From Alphaproteobacteria bacterium (GTDB lineage: Bacteria > Pseudomonadota > Alphaproteobacteria > Puniceispirillales > Puniceispirillaceae), in NCBI GenBank assembly GCA_016780775.1, contig JADHLI010000001.1, forward strand, positions 1 through 64,000: a DNA stretch of 64,000 nucleotides. Direction: 5' to 3'. Position 1 is the stretch's first letter. Each line of letters begins with the position of its first letter. A program made the position numbers and the translations under genes. The notes below the pieces were generated by a model that did no database searches, was not told the DNA's origin, and saw only the letters and a list, made by a program, of their open reading frames with translations. Below, piece after piece: positions 29,590 through 37,232 of this stretch.

Positions 29590-30531
29590 TCAATCGGTTT
29601 CCATAGGCAGAGAGGTATCCATCGCCCATTCGCTCATCGAATGGTCATAAAGCGCCATCTGCATATACCCTAATTGATAGAGCACAAAGAAATTCAAAGT
29701 TGCGGCAATACCGCCGCCGCAATAATGGATGATTTCCTTGTCTTGTGTGATATTCTGCTGTGATAGAAGTTGGCGCGCCTGTTCCGGCGCAATCAATTTA
29801 TCATTATCTGATAAAAGGAAATTATGAAAAGGGATGTTTAGGCTTCCCGGAATGCGCCCTTTACGCCCATAGCGCGTGCTCTCTCCTGCATGAATGTCAC
29901 TGGTCAGCGCGTTCAACAGGATGCAGCTATCCGCTTCTATTGCTTTTAAAATATCGTCTTTAAACACTACTAGATTTGAGTATGTGTTAGCCAGGAAATC
30001 AGTTTTTTCAAAAGTGGTGATACCCGATGTAGTTGGCAGGCCTAGATATTGCCATTCTGCCATGCCGCCATTTAAAATGCTGACCTTATTATAGCCAAGC
30101 AGATGCAGCATCCACCATATTCTGCTGGCCCATTGCATGCCGTTTCGTGAATATAAGATGATATGATAGGGCGCGCCAACTCCTAGCTCTGAAAAACGGC
30201 GGGCGAGGTCTCCTAACGCTGGCAGGGTGAAGCGGTAAGGGCTGTCGGCCTCGGATAAATCTTTTTGCAGGTCAAGATAGGCTGAATTTGGAATATGAGC
30301 CTTTTGATATTTTGATAATCCGCTTTTTACTTCATAGGGTTTTTCAGGATGATCATCTGTGAAATGCAGGTAGGTGGTGCAATCAAAAATTCGGATAGTT
30401 GGATTGTCTAGTTGGGATTTGAGCCAGTCGCATTCCACAATGGCTTGTGGGTGGTGCCAGCCTGTTGCTGCGCTTGCCCCAGAACTGGTTTCTGAGCCGT
30501 CCTTATCTGTCTGAGATTTGTCGCTTGCCAT
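29590..30531 (-). CDS. Sulfurtransferase, tandem rhodanese domains (SseA-like, cytosolic)
   Basis: This two-domain rhodanese (313 aa) probably transfers sulfane sulfur from thiosulfate or 3-mercaptopyruvate to thiol or cyanide acceptors. The N-terminal domain (about residues 25-165) is non-catalytic: the loop position reads YSRNGMQ without Cys. The C-terminal domain has the active loop HYCGGGIAA near residue 266, closest to 3-mercaptopyruvate-type CGxGxxA loops. There is no signal peptide; a short Ser/Asp-rich N-terminus precedes the first domain. A second, exported member of the same family is encoded at 33784-34749. Confidence 0.92.
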   Translation of the reverse strand: MASDKSQTDKDGSETSSGASAATGWHHPQAIVECDWLKSQLDNPTIRIFDCTTYLHFTDDHPEKPYEVKSGLSKYQKAHIPNSAYLDLQKDLSEADSPYRFTLPALGDLARRFSELGVGAPYHIILYSRNGMQWASRIWWMLHLLGYNKVSILNGGMAEWQYLGLPTTSGITTFEKTDFLANTYSNLVVFKDDILKAIEADSCILLNALTSDIHAGESTRYGRKGRIPGSLNIPFHNFLLSDNDKLIAPEQARQLLSQQNITQDKEIIHYCGGGIAATLNFFVLYQLGYMQMALYDHSMSEWAMDTSLPMETD

Positions 30532-31272: not shown

Positions 31273-32196
31273 CTAAACAAGCTTTGCTGGGTTATAGCCT
31301 GCCTTACAAAGGCTTGTATGCAAATAGGCAATATGTTCGGGGCTAATTTCGCAACAACCACCAATAATGGTCGCACCTGCTTCTGCCCAGCCAAGCGCAT
31401 GGTCTGCATAAGCAGTAGGTGACAAATCTTGACGCGCTTCTAGATTATCCACTGTGGTGCCAGGGGCTAGCCCTTCGATAGAGGTAAAGCCATTGGCATA
31501 GCCGCCAAAGCGCAGGCCAGATGCGGCTAACAGTGGAAGGGCTGTATCCACCGCTTCTGGAAACGAGCAGTTTACACATAGCCCATCAAGCCCTTCTGAG
31601 CCCAGCTGGTCAATCGCAGCTTCAAGGCTCTCACCAGAACGCAAGCTGTTGGAAAGATCGTCTGATAAGGTAAGGCCGATAAAGCATTTTTGACCGGCTG
31701 CCTTTAGGGCTGCCAAAGCAGCTTTTGCTTCGGTGATGTTTGAAATGGTTTCTACTAGAAACACATCCACATGATTTTCTTGGATTTCAATAAGCTGGCA
31801 AAATTGGTCATAGGAATCATCGTAATTTAGCGCGGCGGCAGCTACATAGCTCGCGGCGATAGGCGGCAAACATCCAGCGATATTAACGTCAATTTCCTGC
31901 GCAAGCTCTTTTTGGGTTTGTTCAATTGCTTTGTTCACTAGCTCTGCTGCCAGCTGATGGGCGGCGTGAAACTGATCGCCAAAGCCATGGCGCGTCATGC
32001 GCGGGATTGTGGCAGTATAATTATTCATTGTGATAACGCGGGCGCCGGCACGAATAAAGTCCTTATGCACGCCTATAACAATCTCAGGCTCATCAAACAT
32101 TACCTTTACAGACCAAAGCGGATGCGCACTTTCCTGAGTTGAGCGGTTATTTATTTCCTGACCAAGCCCGCCATCTAAAAAGGTAATATCCGCCAT
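31273..32196 (-). CDS. Homocysteine S-methyltransferase family protein
   Basis: This zinc-dependent methyltransferase of the MmuM/BHMT family makes methionine from homocysteine with S-methylmethionine, a betaine or a similar donor. The start at ATG 32196 gives MADITFLDGGLGQEI (307 aa), with a GGAG ribosome site 8 nt before it; the open frame continues upstream to 32247 but that part is not family-like. The three zinc-ligand cysteines are visible: one in LCVNCSFPEA and the pair in GGCCEISPEH near the C-terminus. The methyl donor cannot be read from sequence. Confidence 0.9.
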   Translation of the reverse strand: MADITFLDGGLGQEINNRSTQESAHPLWSVKVMFDEPEIVIGVHKDFIRAGARVITMNNYTATIPRMTRHGFGDQFHAAHQLAAELVNKAIEQTQKELAQEIDVNIAGCLPPIAASYVAAAALNYDDSYDQFCQLIEIQENHVDVFLVETISNITEAKAALAALKAAGQKCFIGLTLSDDLSNSLRSGESLEAAIDQLGSEGLDGLCVNCSFPEAVDTALPLLAASGLRFGGYANGFTSIEGLAPGTTVDNLEARQDLSPTAYADHALGWAEAGATIIGGCCEISPEHIAYLHTSLCKAGYNPAKLV

Positions 32197-32299
32197 GCTA
32201 AGAAGCTCCATTTTTGTGCGTAAAGATAACGGAGATGATAAAAACACAGCATGCTAGCTGCGTCTAGGGCAGGTATAAGATTTCAAAGGCAAGGAAATA

Positions 32300-32470
32300 T
32301 TATTTAGTGTCTGTATCGATACAAGGTGCGCCGCAGGGTGCGCAAGCATTACCCAATTCAGACGGGGATCCTGCGGCTGTTAGCGCTGGGCTAGTTAAAT
32401 GATCGCCTATTAACAGGATAGTGCCAGCCAGAACAATTATCATGTAAATATTTTTCGGTGTTAACGTCAT
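32300..32470 (-). CDS. Small cysteine-rich single-span protein next to YeeE/YedE gene
   Basis: This 56-codon gene is below usual size cut-offs. It starts at ATG 32470, 12 nt after the YeeE/YedE stop, and ends with TAA at 32300. Residues 8-22 form a hydrophobic helix (signal anchor or signal peptide); a short linker leads to a C-terminal NACAPCGAPC motif with cysteines at 43, 46 and 50 (CxxCxxxC). The hydrophobic helix followed by a cysteine cluster, and the tight spacing behind a transporter gene, argue for a real gene. The cluster could carry sulfur, bind metal or do thiol exchange outside the membrane. I know no named family for it. Confidence 0.65.
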   Translation of the reverse strand: MTLTPKNIYMIIVLAGTILLIGDHLTSPALTAAGSPSELGNACAPCGAPCIDTDTK

Positions 32471-32482
32471 TTGCTAGCCCCC

Positions 32483-33631
32483 TTATTTGGATAGACCAAA
32501 TTTTGGTCGTAGCTGGATGCCCGCAAAACTGCCTGCCATGGCCAGCACAAACCAAACCCAGCCATGTAAAGACCCAGAGGCAATCCCGCCTAAAAACGCG
32601 CCAATATTGCAGCCAAAAGATAAGCGCGCCCCAATACCCATCAATAATCCGCCCAGCACAGCAGCCACTAGCTGTCTTCCAGATGGCCAGTTTTGCCTGG
32701 TTAGGTGGCCAGATATAGAAGCGAGGATGCCAGCCCCTAGCACCATGCCGATATTCATCAAGCTAGAGGTGTCGGATAGGAGTGAGTGTTGTAGCGAACG
32801 TGCAGGGCCTGACCATTGCCAAAAGGTAAAGTTTTCCACCGGCACGCCTAAATCTTGTGCTATTTTTGCGCCCCATAAGGTAAAGCCAAAGGTCACGCCC
32901 CAAGGATGGCCAGATAAAGCAAACACAGCCCAGCACAAAACAGCGATCACAATAGAGGCAATGATAAGGGCTGCTGGCAGATGTTGGCGGCGGCGGCGGC
33001 CTAGCAGATAAAAGCTAATGCCCGCCCCGCCGATAAGCGCAAGATTTAAGGCTGTTTTGGGCAGTTCTGCTAGCGAGCCTGCAATCGCAATAGGCCCTGC
33101 TGATCCCCATTCGAGCACAGTTGGCAACAGAAACGAGCCTAGTAGCGAGCCAAGGATGAAAAAGGGCAGGGCGATTACCATCCGCCCTGAGCCACCACCA
33201 AAACTGAACAGCACGCCGGAGCCGCACCCATTCGCTAGTTGCATGCCGATACCGAACATGAACGCGCCGATGAATAAGGATACAGACACAGGTGCTACTG
33301 TGCCAACAGCATTTAACCCCCAAAGAGAGGCGGGAATAAATACTATAGCGCATAGCCCAATAAGCAGGAAATGTGCGGCTAGACCCATGACCTCACCGCC
33401 TACCAACGCGCGCCGCCACACGGACGCAAAACCATATTGAAAGCTTAGGAATACTGCACCTAATATCCCGCCAAGACCAAAAAGGCCGATACCCCGCCAG
33501 CCCGTATCCAGCCATACTAGCCCTGCAAGGCTGAGGGCAATAAGGGCGAAAAAAATAAAACTGCTTGCCTCAAAGGCACGGCCAGCTGATGTGTGTGCTG
33601 GTGATGCAGGTGGGCTTAGCGTTTCTGACAT
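32483..33631 (-). CDS. YeeE/YedE-family transporter (thiosulfate-type)
   Basis: This multi-pass membrane protein of 382 aa belongs to the YeeE/YedE family, whose characterised members import thiosulfate (TsuA), using conserved cysteines along the pathway. Two internally related halves are visible, each with a Gly/Cys motif: ANGCGSGVLFSFGGGSGR near residue 133 and LSFGCNIGAFLGGIASGS near 345. An AAGGAG ribosome site precedes the ATG. The exported sulfurtransferase gene lies upstream and the small cysteine protein directly downstream, supporting a role in uptake of a reduced sulfur compound. The substrate is inferred. Confidence 0.88.
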   Translation of the reverse strand: MSETLSPPASPAHTSAGRAFEASSFIFFALIALSLAGLVWLDTGWRGIGLFGLGGILGAVFLSFQYGFASVWRRALVGGEVMGLAAHFLLIGLCAIVFIPASLWGLNAVGTVAPVSVSLFIGAFMFGIGMQLANGCGSGVLFSFGGGSGRMVIALPFFILGSLLGSFLLPTVLEWGSAGPIAIAGSLAELPKTALNLALIGGAGISFYLLGRRRRQHLPAALIIASIVIAVLCWAVFALSGHPWGVTFGFTLWGAKIAQDLGVPVENFTFWQWSGPARSLQHSLLSDTSSLMNIGMVLGAGILASISGHLTRQNWPSGRQLVAAVLGGLLMGIGARLSFGCNIGAFLGGIASGSLHGWVWFVLAMAGSFAGIQLRPKFGLSK

Positions 33632-33647
33632 AAACGGGCTCCTTGAT

Positions 33648-33707
33648 TTTTAGTGCTGGGCGTTTTAGTGCTGGGCGTTTTAGTGCCGGGCGGGTTTTAG
33701 TGCCGAC
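33648..33707. repeat. 15-bp tandem repeat upstream of the YeeE/YedE gene
   Basis: Three copies of TTTTAGTGCTGGGCG (33648-33662, 33663-33677, and 33678-33692 with one change) are followed by a partial fourth copy offset by two bases. They lie in the 5' leader, ending 17 bp before the YeeE/YedE start codon. Confidence 0.9.
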
Positions 33708-33783
33708 TAGACGCCTCGAAGCTGACAATAGCCGGGTGGGTGGCTGTCAGCTCCGAGAACGATTATTTCACATTGTTCAAACT

Positions 33784-34749
33784 CTAGCCAAGGATTGACT
33801 TAAAAAAGCCTTTGACCTTATCCAGATTTGACTGGCCGATTGCCAATGGATTATCGCTATGGGCTGACCATTCAACCATTGAGCCATCATATAGCTTTAC
33901 ATCCTTGCGCCCCAGAACTTCTGATAGCACAAACCAATTAGTTGCCGCCCAATGACCTGTGTTGCAATAGCTTATCACGGGCTGGTCTGCATCTACTTCT
34001 GCGTAAAGCTGGGTCAGCTCTTGTGCCGATTTCAGGCGGTTTTCTTTTAAATCATAGGCAGTTTCCTGAAACAGCATTTGTGCGCCCGGAATGCGGCCAG
34101 CTTGTGCTGCTTTTGGATGTTTGGCATCGCCTAGATATTGCTGTGCATTGCGGCCATCTAGCAAGGTTGCCTTGTCCTCACGGCCCACCAGTTCAGCAAC
34201 CTGCTGCATGGTGATATAGCCCTGCGGCTGAAAACGGGCGACAAAATCACCAGAAGCTGGTGCAATAGGTGCGCCCTGTTCAATTTGGCTAGGATAGTCG
34301 GCCTGCCAAGCGGCATATCCGCCATTTAGGATAGATACTTTATCATGGCCAAATACTTTAAAAGTCCAATAAGCACGAGCAGATGAGCCAAAATCGGAAG
34401 AGCTAACGCCGGCCGGAATAAACACAACATGGCTGTCTTGGGAGACGCCAAGCTTGCGGGCTAACGCTTCAAACTCTGCTTCAGAGGGCAGCAGGCCAAC
34501 CACATCATCGCGTCCCACACGCCATCCATCTTCTAAATAGTTTGAATGGATGGAAGCAGGGATATGCCCTTCTAAAAAGGTTTCATAACTGCCCTTGTCA
34601 ATTTTGTTACGTAGGTCAATCAGCACAACTTTTTCATTACTCAAATTCGCTGCAACCCAGTTTGTGTCTACCAATGGCTGCGCTGTAGCAGCACTGGCAA
34701 AACCGGCCCATAATAGAGCCGCAAATAGTAAACGGTTTAAATATATCAT
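33784..34749 (-). CDS. Exported sulfurtransferase, tandem rhodanese domains
   Basis: This 321-aa two-domain rhodanese has a clear Sec signal peptide (hydrophobic stretch in residues 5-20, cleavage after SAATA near 23). The C-terminal active loop is SYCNTGHWA near residue 254; CNTGHxA loops are typical of periplasmic thiosulfate sulfurtransferases. The first domain has no catalytic Cys. It should act in the periplasm on thiosulfate or polysulfide, just where the YeeE/YedE transporter encoded 150 bp downstream would take up a product. Confidence 0.93.
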   Translation of the reverse strand: MIYLNRLLFAALLWAGFASAATAQPLVDTNWVAANLSNEKVVLIDLRNKIDKGSYETFLEGHIPASIHSNYLEDGWRVGRDDVVGLLPSEAEFEALARKLGVSQDSHVVFIPAGVSSSDFGSSARAYWTFKVFGHDKVSILNGGYAAWQADYPSQIEQGAPIAPASGDFVARFQPQGYITMQQVAELVGREDKATLLDGRNAQQYLGDAKHPKAAQAGRIPGAQMLFQETAYDLKENRLKSAQELTQLYAEVDADQPVISYCNTGHWAATNWFVLSEVLGRKDVKLYDGSMVEWSAHSDNPLAIGQSNLDKVKGFFKSILG

Positions 34750-35041: not shown

Positions 35042-35650
35042 ATGTCAGCATCAGAATTTTGGAATCAGAAATATCAGACAGATGAATATATTTTTGGCAA
35101 AGCACCAAATGAGTTTATCAAAGCTGTAACCCCGCCTGCTGCCGCGCAAGAGACGGCCTATGCTCCTGCAGATGGGGAGGGACGCAATGGCGTTTTTTTG
35201 GCGCGTATGGGCTATCAGGTTACCTCGAGCGATATTGCTGATTTGGCCGTAGCAAAGGCACGTGCGCTGGCTGCAGAAGAAAAACTATCGCTGAACGCGC
35301 TGGTAGCGGATTGTTTAAACCCGCCTTTTGCCGATAATAGCTTTGATCTGATCGCGGTCTGTTTCATGCATTTTCATCCCGAGGACTCCCTTTTGTTTAT
35401 GGCAGCGAATAAGCGGCTATTGAAACCGGGCGGGCTGTTTATTCTGGAGGGCTATACGCGTGATCAAATTGCGCTCACCTCTGGCGGCCCTAAAAACCCG
35501 GATATGATGTTTTCAGCCGAAGGGTTAAGCCAAACCTTTGCAGACTATGATATCCAACTGCTTCAGGAAGTGCGCCGATATTTAAATGAAGGTCCGCGCC
35601 ATCAAGGTGAGGCGGCTACGGTGCAATTGCTTGCCAGAAAACCCAGCTAG
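35042..35650 (+). CDS. Class I SAM-dependent methyltransferase (TehB-like)
   Basis: This 202-aa SAM methyltransferase has a degenerate motif I (ADGEGRNGVFLARMG near residue 48), an acidic end of strand 2 (SSDIAD near 62), motif II-like CLNPPFADNSFDLI near 90, and a MHFHPEDSLLF segment. This layout resembles TehB-type or small-molecule thiol/chalcogen methyltransferases. The substrate is unknown, though the location beside sulfur genes makes a sulfur or chalcogen acceptor possible. A 13-bp tandem duplication spans its stop codon (35636-35661). Confidence 0.82.
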   Translation: MSASEFWNQKYQTDEYIFGKAPNEFIKAVTPPAAAQETAYAPADGEGRNGVFLARMGYQVTSSDIADLAVAKARALAAEEKLSLNALVADCLNPPFADNSFDLIAVCFMHFHPEDSLLFMAANKRLLKPGGLFILEGYTRDQIALTSGGPKNPDMMFSAEGLSQTFADYDIQLLQEVRRYLNEGPRHQGEAATVQLLARKPS

Positions 35651-36452: not shown

Positions 36453-37232
36453 GTGTCAGAAGAGGGCGTAAATCACTTGGAAATTTATGGTATATTAGCG
36501 CTGCTTTCGCTGGCATTTCTGCTAGGCGGCTTTGTTAAGGGGGCGACTGGTTATGGCATGCCGCTAGTAGCGACCCCTATCTTGCTCATGTCTTTTACCC
36601 TGCCGCAGGTGGTACTTATTATGGTGCCAGCCATTTTTTTCAGTAATCTGGTACAAGGGTTTCAGACACGGCAATGTTGGCGCATATTGAAAATTTTCTG
36701 GCCAATGGTGGCGGCAAATTGTTTGATATTGCTGTTCTTTGGTGGACGTATTCTAACCATGGTGAATGCAAGCCTTCTAACCCTTTTTGTTGGGGTGATG
36801 ATGGTTATTCATGCTGGCCTATCACTCGCACCGCCTATCGGAGCGGTGGAGCGGATGACGTCTGCTATTTCTATTCGTAAAATTATTCTACCTTCTGGCA
36901 TCTTGTCCGGTTTATTAGGCAGTATTACTACCATTTATGGCTTTCCTAGCTTGCAGGTTATCGTGGCCGCAAAATGCAGCAAAGAAGAGTGCGCTTTTCT
37001 ATTTTCCATCTTTCTAGCCAGTGGGCATTTAGCGCTGTGGCGCGGTATGGTTTTGAACGATTATTCTGATCCGGCGATGCTACAATGGGGGCTGGTTGGA
37101 TGTGTGCCAATGTTCTTTGCGTTATTAGCTGGGCGTATCGTGCATAAAAAATTATCTGTGCAAGGCTTTCGAAAAGCTGTCAATCTGGTGTTGTTGCTGG
37201 CCGGTTTGGGCTTGGTGCTAAAATCTTTATAA
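36453..37232 (+). CDS. TSUP (TauE/SafE) family permease
   Basis: This polytopic membrane protein of 259 aa belongs to the sulfite exporter TauE/SafE family. The first helix region LGGFVKGATGYGMPLVATPIL carries the family glycine motif; the second repeat has PSGILSGLLGSITTIYGFP near residue 147. Family members export sulfite, sulfoacetate or other organosulfur anions, or import some, so the direction is not certain. The GTG start at 36453 gives a short hydrophilic lead; an internal start is possible. It closes the sulfur-related stretch. Confidence 0.88.
   Translation: MSEEGVNHLEIYGILALLSLAFLLGGFVKGATGYGMPLVATPILLMSFTLPQVVLIMVPAIFFSNLVQGFQTRQCWRILKIFWPMVAANCLILLFFGGRILTMVNASLLTLFVGVMMVIHAGLSLAPPIGAVERMTSAISIRKIILPSGILSGLLGSITTIYGFPSLQVIVAAKCSKEECAFLFSIFLASGHLALWRGMVLNDYSDPAMLQWGLVGCVPMFFALLAGRIVHKKLSVQGFRKAVNLVLLLAGLGLVLKSL

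Follow-up and report, generated by a model that had tools for sequence, protein, structure and literature searches.

A small cysteine-tailed membrane protein encoded with YeeE/YedE and a predicted exported rhodanese as a candidate part of a sulfur-uptake module

Background

Among the YeeE/YedE transporters, TsuA takes up thiosulfate and has a cytoplasmic, TusA-like partner, YeeD/TsuB, with C293 and C91 of TsuA acting as the first and second cysteines of the uptake path (PMC11073785). A further member, YedE1E2, imports zero-valent sulfur (PMC10812762). We analyzed a stretch of 64,000 nt (positions 1 to 64,000 of contig JADHLI010000001.1, assembly GCA_016780775.1, family Puniceispirillaceae), referred to here as the window, in which a YeeE/YedE gene is flanked by genes for a predicted exported rhodanese and a small cysteine-tailed protein.

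The closest described system is TsuA-TsuB of E. coli and Spirochaeta thermophila (PMC11073785), which shares with this locus the YeeE/YedE fold and a small cysteine-bearing partner encoded alongside, and two of its three relay cysteines are present in the window YeeE. However, YeeD is a soluble cytoplasmic protein with a CPxP motif, whereas the partner described here spans the membrane once and has a cysteine tail predicted to lie in the periplasm, and the YeeD-facing C22 of TsuA is a glycine in the window YeeE. SoxT1A/SoxT1B of Hyphomicrobium denitrificans (PMC11582611) and YedE1E2 (PMC10812762) also perform YeeE-type sulfur import with conserved membrane cysteines, but no small Cys-tail partner has been described for them, and their linkage is with sox/shdr or pdo genes, not with an exported rhodanese and a tail. 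The GGCGG arm of SoxY (PMC6067878; Sauve 2007 cited therein) is similar in placing a periplasmic sulfur-carrying cysteine near a flexible C-terminus, and some tails reported below (GGHC, GGFC, GAHC) look much like it; in contrast to SoxY, the small protein is membrane-tethered, homology was not found by any search made, and the genome of the window has no SoxY. Finally, the YTD cluster of sulfur disproportionators (YeeE, TusA, DsrE-like, Chp1, Chp2) likewise sets YeeE beside uncharacterised genes, but its partners are others and have been modelled as a DsrEFH-like complex (PMC13047784). The preliminary description of this DNA knew of no small partner of this type, and our searches of Pfam, NCBIfam, PDB sequences and open-access journal papers likewise returned no small cysteine partner of YeeE beyond YeeD.

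Results

Organization of the locus

The genome is 2.2 Mb in size and 99.6% complete, with a single YeeE of the module type and a single TusA on another contig. The rhodanese, YeeE/YedE and a 56-aa ORF had been described as standing in one line with a 12-nt gap, and the coordinates and strands agree with this: all three lie on the minus strand (Table 1), and 12 nt separate the YeeE stop codon (TAA, 32485-32483) from the small-gene ATG (32470). A run of five guanines 7 nt before that ATG is a plausible ribosome-binding site. Promoter and terminator scans returned about as many sites as shuffled sequence did.

Table 1. Coordinates of features in the window
Feature	Position	Strand	Remarks
Rhodanese	33784..34749	-	predicted exported, tandem-domain, 321 aa; signal peptide about residues 1-23, predicted by inspection only
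Rhodanese catalytic Cys262 codon	33966-33964	-	within loop YCNTGHWA
YeeE/YedE transporter	32483..33631	-	382 aa, PF04143
YeeE Cys136 codon	33224..33226	-	TsuA C91 equivalent, NGCGSG
YeeE Cys341 codon	32609..32611	-	TsuA C293 equivalent, FGCNIG
Small Cys-tail gene	32300..32470	-	56 aa
CAPCGAPC motif	32321..32344	-	codons 43-50 of small gene
GGGGG	32478..32482	-	possible ribosome-binding site (sequence-based inference)
Direct repeats	33640-33700		three near-identical short copies (TTTTAGTGCTGGGCG-like)
Second tandem rhodanese	29590-30531	-	no signal sequence; loop HYCGGGIAA
Homocysteine S-methyltransferase	31273-32247	-	
Small methyltransferase	35042-35650	+	
TauE/SafE permease	36453-37232	+	

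Several other features of the surroundings were noted. Short direct repeats lie between the rhodanese and YeeE genes, and a second tandem rhodanese, apparently cytoplasmic, is encoded 3 kb downstream on the same strand. By their Pfam matches, three neighbours have a sulfur theme: a TauE/SafE permease, a small methyltransferase and, downstream of the small gene, a homocysteine S-methyltransferase. The last was considered as a fourth member of the module and rejected, as its adjacency to the module is not conserved.

The small Cys-tail protein

The small protein is built of a short basic N-terminus, one transmembrane helix (about residues 5-26), the sequence DHLTSP, a linker and CAPCGAPC, so that the three-cysteine CxxCxxxC cluster reported earlier at its end corresponds to Cys 43, 46 and 50. 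This motif was invariant in 16/16 family members from a whole-protein search and was also encountered in relatives of another class, reached through YeeE. In the aligned family, D23-H24, S27 and CAPCGAPC (residues 43-50) are without exception, with the remainder falling to about 38% identity. Compared to its nearest relative, the small gene carries 11/5/37 substitutions at codon positions 1/2/3, with a dN of 0.19 against a saturated dS of 2.8, a pattern of purifying selection that marks the ORF as a real gene, with conservation that exceeds chance by far.

No match to the window's small protein was found in Pfam, NCBIfam or PDB sequences, nor did a PDB profile search with the family return one. 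It does not appear to be a TusA/YeeD protein (no CPxP, no Pfam or NCBIfam match) or a SoxY (PF13501, C-terminal GGCGG; no Pfam match). An apparent YeeE-small protein fusion in locus L106 proved to be an artefact of a frameshifted YeeE.

The protein had been called membrane-anchored or exported. Anchoring is the better supported of the two, as the D-H-x-x-S directly behind the helix is kept and there is no sign of a conserved cleavage site. Most small proteins have a basic N-terminal flank and a neutral or acidic stretch after the helix (L151 is an exception), which suggests an N-in/C-out topology in most members; the tail cysteines would then share a side with the exported rhodanese and with the first cysteine of YeeE.

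The transporter and the rhodanese

The window YeeE matches Sulf_transp (PF04143) at 3e-45, with 155.7 bits against a cut-off of 27, and its predicted fold superimposes on TsuA (8k1r) with a Z of 36 over 307 residues and an rmsd of 2.5. Cys136 and Cys341 align with the essential C91 and C293 of S. thermophila TsuA and are kept in 68/71 of the clade. It was noted that Gly67 stands at the place of C22, the third, YeeD-facing cysteine, which is never Cys in the clade. The transporter is not a TsuA equivalog: this third cysteine is absent and the NCBIfam TsuA model scores 46.7 against a cut-off of 400, the best NCBIfam match being a selenium YedE model, far under its cut-off. We considered whether the tail substitutes for the lost C22 and rejected this, because Gly at that position is common to nearly all of the sampled long-YeeE subfamily, tailed or tail-less, and is thus not attributable to the tail. 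A Gly behind the second YeeE cysteine was found in 46/47 tailed compared to 17/56 tail-less transporters.

The rhodanese has two PF00581 domains (Pfam, 3e-29) and is related to solved rhodaneses/MST. Its catalytic cysteine loop, YCNTGHWA, lies in the C-terminal domain and recurs, exactly or as a close variant, in nearly all alphaproteobacterial relatives. A signal-like N-terminus, recognized by inspection only in the window rhodanese and its relatives, makes export a prediction.

Distribution of the CAPCGAPC type

A whole-protein search of 61 related genomes, including the window's own, recovered strong homologues of the small protein in 18/61, all of the same family. The small gene lies directly 3' of YeeE in all 17 of these besides the window's own, and the rhodanese was found upstream in 16/17 on short stretches, and in the seventeenth too on a YeeE-centred stretch. 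In a YeeE search, a close YeeE (at least 52% identity) was encountered in exactly the same 18 genomes and in 0/43 others, two of which carry a more distant YeeE at 38-39% identity.

We then looked for CAPCGAPC in about 85,000 species genomes and confirmed hits by tblastn, which gave 110 relatives, of which 80 were kept; since the motif was the search pattern, its invariance in this set is by construction. By their record titles, the 80 loci come from groups such as SAR116, OCS116, Rhodobiaceae, Pseudolabrys, Xanthobacteraceae, Rhodoplanes, Afifella and other Alphaproteobacteria. In these named loci, YeeE is directly upstream of the small gene in 80/80 and an exported rhodanese precedes YeeE in 79/80, the remaining locus being cut by a contig end. 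The refuting condition named in the preliminary description, a lack of homologues next to YeeE genes elsewhere, clearly does not hold: every homologue adjoins YeeE, and almost all have an exported rhodanese close by. The junction of YeeE and the small gene is tight, in most cases -4 to +18 nt and often an overlap (-1 or -4), suggesting translational coupling. No other neighbour was common to all lineages.

Other tail types and their association with rhodanese

Searches with YeeE only, blind to the small gene, were made in the window's own class, its phylum and another class. We found that the same slot holds small proteins with a short N-terminus, one transmembrane helix, usually an Asp-His next to it, and a cysteine tail. 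Type A, CAPCGAPC, occurs also in the other class (L198, L200, L202, L209-L212). Type B carries NPCAA-like repeats and reaches about 200 aa, with as many as 28 cysteines (L152, L153, L179, L180). Type C has DHTRH and SPCGL/SPCSL repeats (L199, L213, L215, L217-L222); at these loci, if the stretch extends far enough, a DUF6969-like gene and an exported rhodanese are found downstream. Type D has one cysteine, in GAHC, GGHC or GGFC (L039, L040, L228, L229), and L206 (MPCGL) resembles it. Across types, the number of tail cysteines ranges from 1 to 28. Eight tail representatives had no notable Pfam or NCBIfam match. The common position, helix and DH dyad favour homology of the four types over partial convergence. 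The window's module shows each family feature: the helix, a DH-type dyad, the C-terminal Cys tail, a place directly 3' of YeeE and a linked rhodanese with predicted export. As a separate observation, operons of types B and C contain DUF6969 or a look-alike (motif EHGHFHxF), which either separates the Cys-tail gene from the rhodanese gene or adjoins them (L153, L156, L213-L222, L234:4364-4983).

In the YeeE-only searches, a same-strand rhodanese was present at 44/45 tailed YeeE loci compared to 1/54 tail-less loci (Fisher exact test; p = 7e-26, not corrected for ancestry). Among the rhodanese-YeeE pairs, L154 alone had no detectable Cys-tail gene, and L156 was the tailed locus without a rhodanese within the stretch examined. 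In the YeeE tree, some deep nodes of which are poorly supported, each tail type occupies its own branches and 53 tail-less YeeEs form one group. The tail-less L158 (inside the A clade) and L214 (inside the C clade) are also without rhodanese. Together with the large tail-less clade, these loci indicate that tail and rhodanese have apparently been lost jointly at least three times. The tail-less sister clade counts against the reading proposed below, as it shows that transporters of this subfamily can function tail-less; L154 and L156 weigh on the same side. We consider the partnership of the small protein with YeeE and rhodanese to be well supported and very probable.

Structure prediction

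The YeeE and small genes are in frame, so read-through of both stops (as Gly) yields a single chain, which was used as a modelling device and not as a claim about translation. Of the 77 rows in the fusion alignment, 13 were paired read-through sequences of other loci and the rest single proteins; with it, AlphaFold2 gave this chain a pTM of 0.90 and a mean pLDDT of 90, with the tail block at 90, 79 and 75 and isolated bridge residues. Modelled alone with 45 sequences, the small protein showed a good helix and an unstructured tail (pLDDT about 53-60). The comparison predicts that YeeE orders the tail. It is no proof of contact, given the proximity that the fused chain imposes and the difference between the mixed fusion alignment and that of the lone protein.

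Discussion

We propose, with a probability of about 0.6, that the three genes make up a single conserved module for sulfur uptake, in which the tail relays sulfane sulfur from rhodanese to YeeE. The small protein would be a dedicated, single-pass partner of YeeE, oriented N-in/C-out with its Cys tail in the periplasm at the transporter's outer face. With thiosulfate or some other compound as donor, the exported rhodanese would load sulfane sulfur onto its catalytic cysteine (YCNTGHWA). The tethered tail, serving as a flexible arm or as a local store, would receive this sulfur on its own cysteines and hand it to YeeE Cys341 and Cys136, for entry into the cytoplasm. The relay suggested earlier is partly supported. 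Co-conservation and co-loss of the genes, the TsuA fold, the conserved cysteines and a predicted ordering of the tail are shown here, whereas the holder of the sulfur, the direction and the substrate are inferred, as are the topology and the sulfur chemistry. The small protein probably helps sulfur transfer from rhodanese to YeeE; candidate substrates are thiosulfate, persulfide, polysulfide and selenium.

An alternative is that the tail acts as a thiol redox partner, reducing rhodanese or YeeE cysteines or taking sulfite or an oxidant, without sulfur cargo. CAPCGAPC does contain a CxxC, and at about ten loci of Rhodobiaceae/OCS116 type the next gene after the small one encodes a DsbA-like thioredoxin (PF01323; e.g. 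L081:4028-4768). However, this DsbA-like gene is lineage-specific, and the single-cysteine tails of type D and L206 would be unable to form an intramolecular CxxC disulfide; the variable cysteine number, down to one, favours carrying or buffering of cargo over a CxxC redox switch, and we consider the redox reading unlikely.

The small protein could instead serve YeeE as a subunit for assembly, stability or gating, perhaps binding metal through its cysteines and the DH pair, and take no part in sulfur transfer. Its strict pairing with YeeE, its helix and the conserved DHxxS at the membrane surface are consistent with this, as would be the predicted ordering of the tail by YeeE, but the link to rhodanese across tail types and the growth to tens of PC repeats are left unexplained, making this quite unlikely. 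That the ORF is spurious, or a remnant of YeeE read-through, might be suspected from its shortness and from its having been described as uncalled, but a conserved protein under purifying selection, with its own start and the same position in dozens of genomes, leaves this reading with practically no weight.

Returning to the relay from rhodanese through the tail to YeeE, a broader reading, which we advance tentatively and at slightly less than even odds, is that these proteins are a class of sulfur carriers not recognised before. Tethered to the membrane on its periplasmic side, they would bear from 1 to about 28 cysteines, arranged in repeats that differ between lineages (CAPCGAPC, NPCAA, SPCGL), and would be loaded by an exported rhodanese and discharge into a YeeE-type channel.

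Neither sulfite reductase nor SoxY was found in the window's genome, which fits, without proving, a role of the module as a reduced-sulfur route there. That the module compensates for absent sulfate assimilation was rejected, since sulfite reductase (PF01077) showed no association with it: 5/18 family genomes with the module have the enzyme, as do 5/19 of those lacking it. SoxY was present in 2/18 compared to 9/19, a weak opposite trend uncorrected for phylogeny.

On the pSymB replicon of Sinorhizobium meliloti 1021 (L234; NC_003078.1, about 1,088,140-1,090,750), rhodanese and YeeE genes occur together with a tail gene (MTTRNTLLFGAALAAATAAVAVDHHNH...APCAAGAPCSAAAPC...) and a DUF6969 gene, which makes the module testable in a genetic model. 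A related pSymB annotation, in an incomplete table, lists the sulfurtransferase and YeeE and lacks the tail gene. The exported rhodanese of this module may be the product of S. meliloti thtR (SMb21549), a gene reported as 29-fold up in a tolC mutant (PMC2912261).

The module is thus present in marine groups (SAR116, OCS116), in soil bacteria and in the genetic model S. meliloti, with a small-protein family that current annotation libraries miss. For YeeE/YedE transporters, the sole acceptor described so far is cytoplasmic, whereas the partner proposed here would be extracytoplasmic, is defined and deletable, and comes with a residue-level prediction. If true, the extracytoplasmic cysteine relay would be the counterpart of the cytoplasmic YeeD side of TsuA.
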